Assembly: GCA_025928215.1 (NCBI GenBank)
Contig: JAICJW010000003.1
Location: 1-32,354, forward strand
Length of the DNA stretch: 32,354 nt
DNA from: Chloroflexia bacterium
GTDB taxonomy: Bacteria > Chloroflexota > Chloroflexia > Thermomicrobiales > JALYUS01
Direction of reading: 5' to 3'
Position 1 is the first letter of the stretch. Each line of letters opens with the position of its first letter. Shown piece after piece: positions 6,601 to 16,536 of this stretch. Under the pieces are notes generated by a model. The model did not search any database, had not been told where the DNA came from, and saw nothing but the letters and a program-made list of their open reading frames with translations. The translations under genes were made by a program, and so were the position numbers.

Positions 6601-7257
6601 TCAGATACGGTTGAGCAGTTCGGCGCGCTTCGCGTCATATTCGGCCTGCGAGATCGCACCGCGATCCCGGAGATCGGCGAGTTTCGCGATCAGAGAGGCG
6701 GCATCTTCCTGTCTGACCGGCGCGATGGCGGGCGGAGCGGGACGGTAGCCGCTTATCCGGTCGGTGTAGGAATCGCGCGCCGCGAGCACGGCCCGTTTGA
6801 AGGCGAGCGGATCGGCGACGTGCTCAAGCAGGTCCGCGCCGACATCATTGCCGGTGACGATCTCCATATCGCCGTAGTTGAGCATGCGGCCAAAGAGCGT
6901 TTGATTGAGCACGAGGTCGTTGATCATATTGAGCGATGAGTCAATCGTGTGCTTGCCGAGCAGGCCGGAGACCTGGATAACGCGGCGATCGGTGATGATG
7001 TAGTGCTCGTTGCGCCAGCGCAGAAACTGGATGAAGACTTGCAGATAAAAGATGAGCGCCAGGGCGAGGAAAACAATCAGGACGATCAGGCCGACTCTGG
7101 CGTTGCTGATCTTCACCTTCGCGACAATGCCGATGATGAGGAGGAGAATCGTCAGGAGCGCGTTGCCGGCGACCCGCTTTGCCAGAACCGTCCAGTGGGG
7201 ATGCGCGGCGAACAGTTTTTCCTCGCCGTTGCCGAGCAGGTCATCAATGTATGCCAT
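6601..7257 (-). CDS. PH-domain (bPH2) membrane protein with C-terminal SHOCT domain
   Basis: Two TM segments, bPH2-like YIITDRRVIQVSGLLGKHTIDSSLNMINDL, SHOCT tail LIAKLADLRDRGAISQAEYDAKRAELL. ATG at 7257 overlaps the recO 3' end. Confidence 0.85.
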   Translation of the reverse strand: MAYIDDLLGNGEEKLFAAHPHWTVLAKRVAGNALLTILLLIIGIVAKVKISNARVGLIVLIVFLALALIFYLQVFIQFLRWRNEHYIITDRRVIQVSGLLGKHTIDSSLNMINDLVLNQTLFGRMLNYGDMEIVTGNDVGADLLEHVADPLAFKRAVLAARDSYTDRISGYRPAPPAIAPVRQEDAASLIAKLADLRDRGAISQAEYDAKRAELLNRI

Positions 7258-12527: not shown

Positions 12528-12602
12528 GGGCCTGTAGCTCAGCGGTAGAGCAGTGGACTTTTAATCCATTGGTCGTGGGTTCGAATCCCACCGGGCTCAC
12601 CA
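12528..12602 (+). tRNA. tRNA-Lys(TTT), CCA encoded
   Basis: GGGCCTG acceptor / CGGGCTC, D-arm TAGCTCAGCGGTAGAGCA, anticodon loop CTTTTAA (TTT), T-arm GTGGGTTCGAATCCCAC, ACCA end. Confidence 0.95.
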
Positions 12603-13020
12603 TGTTTTTCATGGTATATCAGCGAAATGACGAGTAGCGGGGTTCGAAGTTGGCTTCCCGCCATGCCCGTTGCAAGCAATATGAGCCACAGCGGGGCGTA
12701 GGGCGCGCCCTGAGCCATTGTGAGGAACGTTCGTGCTTCGGTTGCGTTCCACCACCCGTATTTGCGGGCGTATGCCCTTCGGCGGCTTAACGGCATCTGC
12801 CACGTTGCGATTGACAAGGCCTTGCTCGAAAGCGTGTTGCAGGGATTCGCGCATGATGCTGTGCAGGTACTTCACCGTGCGCGGCGACAACCCTCCCTCC
12901 TTGCCGTCCATTCGCCCGTCGCGCAGCTTTTCGCTGTAGAAATCGCGTAGTTGCGTAGGTGTCAGCCGCATGCTCGCCGCGCACAGCGATAGATGATGCG
13001 CATCCAGGGCGTCGCGGACC
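12603..13020 (-). pseudogene. Tyrosine recombinase/integrase remnant (frameshifted, both ends truncated)
   Basis: Minus-strand frame 12609-12971 gives a core-binding-domain-like RLTPTQLRDFYSEKLRDG...LSPRTVKYLHSIMRESLQHAFEQGLVNRNVADAVKPPKG. It continues in another minus frame (12539-12817) as RKYGWWNATEARTFLTMAQGAPYAPLWLILLATGM. The catalytic HxxR...Y region is missing. Directly abuts tRNA-Lys. Confidence 0.82.
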
Positions 13021-13077
13021 CTCCATGTGCTAAGATGGCCGCGTCGGAATCAGGTACAACAAAAAGGGGGGCGGACC

Positions 13078-14322
13078 ATGGCACCACGAGCGGCCGGGCA
13101 TGCCGACGTGCAGGACGTGACAGCGGGCAGGGCATTGAAGCGGCGGGGCATCCTCGCGGCAGCGGGAGCGGTCGTGGCAGGGTTCGTCGCCAAGCAGACG
13201 AGCCAACCCGTGGAGGCCGGCATCGACGGTGATGTCGTCGCCGCCGGATTGACCGTTGTGGCCGCCGCCACCGGCCTCCGCAACAACTTGGGTGGCAACT
13301 TTGTCACGCCCACGCTGACATGCATGCGAGGGCCGGACAACCAATTCCCCCCGCCGGGAAACTATGTAGCCAATGTTGCGTTGGTCGCGGACAGCAAGAG
13401 CAGCTCCGACGCAATCGGCGTTTGGGCGCTCGGGGATACGGCTATCCTCGCAGATGGCGGGGGGGCTGGTGTGCAAGCATACGCCGGCGCAGCTACCAGC
13501 ATCGCGGTGATGGGGCAGGCCGACCCGGCGGGCGCCATCGGCGCCATCGGCAAGAGCAGCGCCGGCGTCGGCATCAAGGGGGTCTCCGACACCGGCTTCC
13601 CGATCATCGGGCAGGCGGTCGCCCTCTGGAGCACCAACCCCGGCACTCTCGGTGTCGGCACGGCGGGGCCGGGGGTGCAAGGACAGTCGGCGGCGGGGCA
13701 TGGCTTGATTGGCTACACCAGTGCCAGCGACGGCCATGCCGCTCTCATCGGCTACGCACAGGCAGCGGGAGGGGTCGGGCTGATCGGGGTGGCACCCGGC
13801 AGCGCCGGACACTGGGCGGGGGTCTTCTACGGTGATGTCCATATCAATGGTACGACGAGCGCGCCCGTGCATACCACCGTGGTCAAGCATGCGGGAGACA
13901 ACACCTCCCGCGCCCTCTACAGCACGATATCACCCGAATCGTGGGTGGAGGACTTCGGCAACGGGACGCTGGCCGGGGGCAAAGCCAACATCGCCCTCGA
14001 TGCGGACTTCGCGGCGTTGGTGGACACGCGCACCATGCACCTCTTCATGACGGCACATGGGCCGCACTACCTGCACGTCGAGCAGCAGACGGTGGCGGGA
14101 TTCACGGTAGTCGCGACGGCAATCGGGAGCGGACAGGCAGGCGGACCGAAGCCAGCGGAGGGAGGGGGGACGTTCTCATGGCGGGTGGTAGCGAAGCGGA
14201 AGGACATTGTGGGGGAACGGCTGGCTAAGGTGCCGCCGCCGCTGCCGCTGAAGTCGATGACGCCGATCACGGTGCCGGAGACGCCCGCAGTCAAGCCACC
14301 ACCAAGAAGACCTAGCGAATGA
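13078..14322 (+). CDS. Putative Tat-exported Gly/Ala-rich repeat surface protein with C-terminal adhesin/stalk-like domain
   Basis: Tat-like RRGILAAAGAVVAGFVA. Degenerate repeats such as GAIGAIGKSSAGVGIKGVSDTG / GVGTAGPGVQGQSAAGHGLIGYTSASDGHAALIGYAQAAGGVGLIGVA. C-terminal ESWVEDFGNGTLAGGKANIALDADFAALVDTRTMHLFMTAHG...FSWRVVAKRKDI. ATG preceded by AAAAAGGGGGG. Confidence 0.7.
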   Translation: MAPRAAGHADVQDVTAGRALKRRGILAAAGAVVAGFVAKQTSQPVEAGIDGDVVAAGLTVVAAATGLRNNLGGNFVTPTLTCMRGPDNQFPPPGNYVANVALVADSKSSSDAIGVWALGDTAILADGGGAGVQAYAGAATSIAVMGQADPAGAIGAIGKSSAGVGIKGVSDTGFPIIGQAVALWSTNPGTLGVGTAGPGVQGQSAAGHGLIGYTSASDGHAALIGYAQAAGGVGLIGVAPGSAGHWAGVFYGDVHINGTTSAPVHTTVVKHAGDNTSRALYSTISPESWVEDFGNGTLAGGKANIALDADFAALVDTRTMHLFMTAHGPHYLHVEQQTVAGFTVVATAIGSGQAGGPKPAEGGGTFSWRVVAKRKDIVGERLAKVPPPLPLKSMTPITVPETPAVKPPPRRPSE

Positions 14323-14526: not shown

Positions 14527-15216
14527 CTACCCGCCGTAGCCGAACGAGTCGGTAGCGCCAAAGTCTATCGTCGCGATTACCTGCCCGAACTCACCGTCGA
14601 GCACGCCCTCTCTGTCGGGCGAGCACCGATAAATGATAACGGCCTCATCACCGCCAACTTGCCCGACCCACGTCGTGCCAGAGATTTGCAGTCCGTTATC
14701 CCGTTGGTAGTAGTGAAACTGACCAATATTCCCCTGATACGCGCCAACCTGTTGCTGTTGAGGTGCGCTCGTCACGACAAGAGACGTAATGTTGTCCCCC
14801 TTCCCGAACGTGTTCATTTCAGATTGCCAGGTTGACGCGTAGTCCCCACCTCTCGCACCTGGAAATCGGTAGATGTCGAGGGCTTCGAAATCAAACACGT
14901 TCGACGGTGAGGAGAGCGCGAAGCGATTCGGACTGTTGTGCTCCGGATCTTCGACGAGAGAGGGTGGGGCGAAAAAGCGAACATGGATGAGCGGATAGAA
15001 GGCAACCCATGAGCCGTATGCGGGCTGGATATCCGATCCGTAGCCAGCAGAGACACCGGAAGCCACCGCTGCAACGTTTATTGTTGGCAGTCGCGCCGTC
15101 GTCGAGATCGGCACGCTCCGCGTTGCGCCAACCACCACTGTGAGTGTGGCCACACCATTCGGCGTCGGGATCGGTGCGGGGGGAACTGCTGGATTCTGAG
15201 TAGGCAGTACACCCAT
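14527..15216 (-). CDS. Hypothetical protein (island cargo)
   Basis: 229-aa ORF between the tRNA repeats; no family recognised from the translation. Pro-rich N-terminus, aromatic C-terminal half. Confidence 0.5.
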   Translation of the reverse strand: MGVLPTQNPAVPPAPIPTPNGVATLTVVVGATRSVPISTTARLPTINVAAVASGVSAGYGSDIQPAYGSWVAFYPLIHVRFFAPPSLVEDPEHNSPNRFALSSPSNVFDFEALDIYRFPGARGGDYASTWQSEMNTFGKGDNITSLVVTSAPQQQQVGAYQGNIGQFHYYQRDNGLQISGTTWVGQVGGDEAVIIYRCSPDREGVLDGEFGQVIATIDFGATDSFGYGG

Positions 15217-15278: not shown

Positions 15279-15319
15279 TTAATCCATTGACGTGAGTTCG
15301 AATCTCACCGGGATCACCA
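15279..15319 (+). repeat. Diverged duplicate of tRNA-Lys 3' end (candidate distal att site)
   Basis: TTAATCCATTGACGTGAGTTCGAATCTCACCGGGATCACCA vs tRNA TTAATCCATTGGTCGTGGGTTCGAATCCCACCGGGCTCACCA. Confidence 0.8.
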
Positions 15320-15405
15320 AGTAGAGAAACAGAAACCCTCTGCCGTTCGGTGGCGCGTTCCTTTATTCTCTCACATTCATTCCAAGCGATACTCATGGTA
15401 CACGT

Positions 15406-16536
15406 TCACTGATAGATGACGACGAGGGGGCTGGGATCGAGGGCGACGATGTCGGCGGGAGTCATCAGCGGCTTGTCCTGTTTATAGAAGAGTTTGATGC
15501 CGCCATACTGGATCAGTTCGTCGTGGACGAACTTCGTGTAGTTGCCGCTTTTCGCGCCGGGCGCACCGAACCCGTCCATCACCGTCACCAACTGGACATG
15601 CGGAGTCGGTTTGATATTCGCTTTGTCCGGCAGCATATCATCGCGGAACTGGTGAATCACCAGCACCTTATCAGTGATGCCATTGTGCGTCACGATGTCC
15701 GCAAGCATCGTCGCGGCAGTCTTTACTTCCGCGGCGCTGACGCTACCGAAGACCTCGCCCGGCACTTCGCCGTGTTGGACGTGGAATTCGGGGTCAATGG
15801 CGAGATGCACATAGGGGCGTTTGAGGACCGGCGCGAGCCGTGTCACCTCGTTCGCCATGGTGTCATATCCCAGTTGAATATCGAGAAGCAGCAAGCAGTC
15901 GTTCTGCGCCGCGATGTCCGCGTATTCCTCGATCAGGGGGAGGCGCGTCCGGTTGAGGTAGAGGCCATCGTCACCGGGCGTATCGGAGGCGACGGAGGCG
16001 ATCAATTCAATCGTCGGGATCGCCGGTCGGGAAGGGTCGGCGGTGTGATAGGCGGCGGCTTGCGCCTTGAGTTTGGCGATCATCGCCGCCGGTGTGGCGA
16101 ATTCACCGAGGATGCCGAGCCGGTTGTTGTCGGGATGGCCATAGCATGTGACGAGGCGACTGGTGAGGAGCGGGCCGTTCGGCACGACTGGCGCGGGCGT
16201 CGGCGTTGGCGGGGTCGGCGTTGGTGTCGGTTCGCTCGCCCGCAGGCCGACGGCGCGCGCCGCAACGAGCGGGATGACCGGCGGAGCAATCGTCGGTACC
16301 GCCGTTGGCTCGCGCGTCGCCTCCATCGTCGGCGCGATGAACTCCGTACCCGCGAACGCGGAACCGGGCGACGTGGCGCGCGGACGCTCGTGATTGTCTG
16401 GCACGCTCTCGCCGAAGCGAGGCAGCGCGATCGCACCAACGAGAATCAAGACAAGCACGGCGATCATCCGGACACGCCGCGCCGCAAGACCTTTCACCCT
16501 ACTGCACACTCCCTTCATGCGCACCGCCACGGGCAT
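15406..16536 (-). CDS. Secreted/membrane-anchored hypothetical protein with Pro/Thr linker and putative TIM-barrel-like domain
   Basis: N-terminal TM (MIAVLVLILVGAIALP), linker SEPTPTPTPPTPTPAPV, soluble domain with LLLLDIQLGYDTMANEV...PYVHLAIDPEFHVQ. Start codon uncertain. Confidence 0.65.
   Translation of the reverse strand: MPVAVRMKGVCSRVKGLAARRVRMIAVLVLILVGAIALPRFGESVPDNHERPRATSPGSAFAGTEFIAPTMEATREPTAVPTIAPPVIPLVAARAVGLRASEPTPTPTPPTPTPAPVVPNGPLLTSRLVTCYGHPDNNRLGILGEFATPAAMIAKLKAQAAAYHTADPSRPAIPTIELIASVASDTPGDDGLYLNRTRLPLIEEYADIAAQNDCLLLLDIQLGYDTMANEVTRLAPVLKRPYVHLAIDPEFHVQHGEVPGEVFGSVSAAEVKTAATMLADIVTHNGITDKVLVIHQFRDDMLPDKANIKPTPHVQLVTVMDGFGAPGAKSGNYTKFVHDELIQYGGIKLFYKQDKPLMTPADIVALDPSPLVVIYQ

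Follow-up and report, generated by a model that had tools for sequence, protein, structure and literature searches.

The DNA analysed here (the window; 32,354 nucleotides of a Chloroflexia bacterium contig) carries an intact tRNA-Lys gene and, further downstream, a partial copy of its 3' half whose T-stem differs from that of the intact gene at both partners of a base pair. This raises the question of what the copy is, and whether the paired change records a tRNA allele of another lineage, as was originally predicted. We consider the copy to be the scar of a small, now dead, mobile element that inserted in the tRNA-Lys gene (probability about 0.9), and the paired change to be probably either chance decay or a relic of an earlier tRNA of the host.

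An intact tRNA-Lys gene and its displaced half

The only tRNA found in the window by ARAGORN and Rfam is tRNA-Lys(TTT), at 12528-12602. The partial copy has the same orientation as this gene, and together they enclose a 2.7-kb interval. The features of the locus are as follows.

12528..12602, + strand: intact tRNA-Lys(UUU) gene with encoded CCA (ARAGORN; Rfam RF00005, 75.9 bits)
12559..12602, + strand: 3' half of this gene, starting in the anticodon loop (TTTTAATCC...) and ending with CCA (repeat pair)
12647..13031, - strand: frameshifted tyrosine integrase remnant adjoining the intact tRNA (phrog_1, tblastn, order search)
13027..14322, + strand: cargo ORF for a secreted-looking protein with a predicted RR-type signal near its N-terminus (own-genome family)
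14527..15216, - strand: possible cargo ORF, GC 56-57% against ~64% around it, with no Pfam or NCBIfam match
15279..15319, + strand: displaced and decayed tRNA-Lys 3' half, the probable distal attachment-site remnant (repeat pair with the intact gene)
15406..16536, - strand: host chromosomal gene, beginning 87 bp past the copy (homologue search)

The copy reads TTAATCCATTGACGTGAGTTCGAATCTCACCGGGATCACCA, or by parts TTAATCCATTG-AC-GTGAG-TTCGAAT-CTCAC-CGGGATC-ACCA, and is followed by AAGTAGAGAAACAG in the host flank at 15320-15405. No listed ORF of at least 60 aa runs across 15279-15319, and the neighbouring ORFs have no Pfam match. Inside the window the repeat formed by the intact gene and the copy has a blastn E value of 1.7e-5, the next best match being at 0.25, and is far above chance. 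Over an alignment of 42 nt the two sequences differ by four substitutions and one deletion. The T-arm is GTGGG-TTCGAAT-CCCAC in the intact gene and GTGAG-TTCGAAT-CTCAC in the copy, and both direct reading and the fold show that pair 52-62 changes from G-C to A-U with pairing retained. The original prediction was therefore right that both T-stem differences are paired, these being partners 52 and 62, and right also that the acceptor 3' strands differ (CGGGCTC in the intact gene against CGGGATC in the copy, with C70 replaced by A). Its description of the copy as a displaced 3' half that is now no tRNA was right as well. The 1-nt deletion that it reported is present in the variable loop (GGTC in the intact gene, GAC in the copy), but a substitution accompanies it there, and the anticodon loop is altered too, with CAATTAA in the copy against CTTTTAA in the intact gene 5' of TTAATCC.

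The A70 of the copy opposes G3 of the present 5' half and forms no pair with it, so that the copy does not offer the present tRNA a matching 3' end. This mismatch and the base lost from the variable loop indicate that the copy has undergone some decay in any case. All of the substitutions at G/C sites of the copy are towards A/T, which is the usual direction of mutation in bacteria and is expected of their DNA when unselected (PMC2936535). At position 70, C looks ancestral because GGGC...GCTC acceptors are common across the phylum.

A probable small island at a recurrent integration site

The genes 5' of the tRNA belong to cytochrome c biogenesis (ResB, CcsB and a thioredoxin-like protein), and the gene beyond the copy has a homologue in 47 of the 61 genomes of the order, its own genome included. 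The integrase remnant between them matches phrog_1 (integrase) with an E value of 1.9e-7, and tblastn with the integrase of genome G012 gives E values of 4.9e-26 and 5e-7. In two different frames it aligns with a relative of 385 aa, over residues 88-182 and 164-218. What is left of it is the core-binding region and the start of the catalytic domain; the N-terminal domain is missing, as is almost the whole catalytic domain. Among intact integrases the closest (58% over 71 aa) is that of G012 (contig C98; L106, 925-2082), which ends ~110 bp from a tRNA-Thr gene. This position suggests that the tRNA targeted may differ among related integrases.

The cargo ORF at 13027..14322 has no Pfam or NCBIfam match, and its family has 12 matches in its own genome and none in 60 relatives of the order. 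None of its paralogues in that genome lies near integrases of the type found in the window. Near one of these paralogues ARAGORN calls a putative tRNA-SeC of 97 nt (L113:580-676).

At least six further genomes of the phylum have displaced 3' halves of tRNA-Lys(UUU) that start from the anticodon loop. In G039 (contig C230), a tRNA-Lys gene cut by the contig end is accompanied by a displaced half 6.9 kb downstream (L102:9-55 and 6925-6969), and the two are identical from GACTTTTAATCC onward. Halves of this kind, with their start in the anticodon loop, are also found in G078, G443, G298 and G409 (L131, L139, L133 and L135, respectively), with further possible cases in G021 and G054, where contigs end. 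In G029 an intact tRNA-Lys is followed by an integrase in the orientation seen in the window, and on another contig of that genome (C476; L105:1203-1249) a 3' half that has no 5' half lies beside a related integrase and reads as the element's own. Judged from these sequences, elements in the phylum have repeatedly used the anticodon loop of tRNA-Lys(UUU) as an attachment site.

From the G029 geometry we infer that the element would have brought in the 3' half at 12559..12602 when it integrated, and that the distal copy would be the former end of the host gene. This assignment is the reverse of the original prediction, in which the distal copy could be borne by the element. Both the provenance of each half and the order of the changes are our reconstruction.

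The history that we propose would begin with a small integrative element entering tRNA-Lys(UUU) at the anticodon loop through tyrosine-integrase recombination. The attP of the element would have borne the 3' half of a tRNA, such that a whole tRNA was restored beside the integrase and the host's own earlier 3' half came to lie at the distal end, at 15279-15319. Later decay would have broken the integrase, and the displaced half, being unselected, would have gathered changes. The A52-U62 pair would reflect either two chance hits, both of them C:G to T:A transitions, or a prior allele difference between host and element. This history is built on what is observed, namely the repeated tRNA half, the remnant of an integrase, the host gene on the far side of the copy and the anticodon-loop signature in other genomes. 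None of the window proteins that flank the island was found beside tRNA-Lys in relatives. The family is represented in the sample by this genome alone, and no empty site in an island-free relative was seen or read.

Origin of the paired T-stem change

The paired change can be explained about as well by chance decay as by an older allele of the host. We simulated decay of the intact half by Monte Carlo with the observed number of substitutions, and a compensated T-stem pair arose in 0.7-3.8% of cases, depending on the number of changes and the mutation model, if the remainder of the stem had to stay as it was, or in 1.5-7.5% when this condition was dropped. Covariation under pure decay is thus unusual, and its improbability counts against decay, yet it is not prohibitive and the pattern was spotted post hoc. 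With a simulated chance of ~1-4%, the earlier claim that random decay would not be expected to covary was too strong. The displaced half of G409 differs from its intact gene by a one-sided T-stem change, which implies that displaced fragments drift in the T-stem without covarying as well.

The other explanation, a special case of the island history, holds that the copy preserves the A52-U62 pair that the host carried before integration and that the element overwrote this half with G52-C62, such that only A70 and the loop changes would be later decay. We regard this as a tentative possibility, with odds clearly below even. It would account for the compensation of the pair, and it is consistent with the geometry that makes the distal half the old host end. 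Among 400 genomes of the phylum, 16 have an A52-U62 pair in tRNA-Lys(UUU) (~4%, some of the matches being themselves displaced halves), a frequency comparable to the chance of ~1-4% under decay, and the exact GTGAG/CTCAC combination occurs in one genome of the phylum, G261, with another acceptor. However, every tRNA-Lys(UUU) gene listed for the order carries G52-C62, and A70, which does not pair with G3, requires some decay anyway. If this explanation is true, half of an essential tRNA gene was exchanged for good, through the element, for a version with a variant T-stem, and scars of this kind could reveal the tRNA that a host carried before a mobile element overwrote it.

It is very unlikely that the copy represents the tRNA-Lys of another lineage brought in by the element, since it is most similar to the intact tRNA of its own genome, at 37 of 41 positions. 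In favour of a foreign source, an exact 25-mer comprising the T-arm and acceptor strand (GTGAGTTCGAATCTCACCGGGATCA) is found in five IMG/VR contigs (L068-L072), in each case in the same tRNA-Lys(UUU), whose 5' acceptor is GATCCCG. These contigs are up to 373 kb long with large tRNA arrays, and look like giant phages. The tRNA that the original prediction proposed to search for is therefore found as far as the T-arm, the acceptor and GATCCCG are concerned, but its anticodon stem and its 3' tail are different, it has no CCA, and at 36 of 41 positions it matches the copy less well than the resident gene does. Two scans of 84,980 species genomes with exact patterns and no positive control, one strict and one with a relaxed anticodon arm, recovered no tRNA-Lys/Asn gene with the 3' half of the copy, and no viral contig of IMG/VR carries TTAATCCAT followed by a fixed 5-nt gap and GTGAG...CTCAC. 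Similarity to phages and plasmids is limited to tRNA-Lys genes or attP-like sites, with 86-93% identity among the matches listed. The copy and the resident gene share G49-C65, U50-A64 and CCATTG, a combination absent among the order relatives listed, and the distal end should derive from the host. With the resident gene as closest match, the empty genome scans and the G52-C62 pair of the listed order relatives, the cross-lineage transfer originally proposed is not supported.

The least probable explanation, with hardly any weight in our assessment, is a chance partial duplication of the tRNA unrelated to integration, which the short island and broken integrase would suit, but against which stand the integrase remnant at the tRNA, the shared orientation, the start at the anticodon loop and the recurrent cases at the same site.

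Relation to known tRNA islands

An intact tRNA, a 3' fragment in the same orientation and an adjoining integrase form the classic signature of a genomic island, and tRNA islands with an anticodon-centred attP are site class A of Islander (PMC4383910). The window shows several of the features by which Islander recognises islands: an intact tRNA with a downstream fragment in the same orientation that reaches the tRNA 3' end, an interval of 2.7 kb within the range of 2-200 kb, and a fragment that lies outside conserved coding domains. As for the integrase, the interval holds a frameshifted tyrosine integrase remnant only.

The interest of the scar is mostly one of housekeeping, in that it shows where a dead island begins and stops; it also places tRNA-Lys(UUU) among the recurrent integration sites of the phylum. 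Similar to the site-A islands of Islander, the locus has an intact tRNA, a displaced 3' fragment in the same orientation and tyrosine-integrase sequence beside the tRNA, but unlike those islands its integrase is a frameshifted remnant and its fragment has lost one base and changed at four others. Damage as such is not foreign to Islander, which has 148 entries as 'islands with damage' (PMC4383910). The copy also resembles the tRNA gene fragments of mobile elements (PMC9897764) as a partial tRNA copy produced through insertion, although, unlike those, it is too short for an ARAGORN call. As a decayed island scar at a tRNA-Lys gene, the locus belongs to a kind of feature that is already known.
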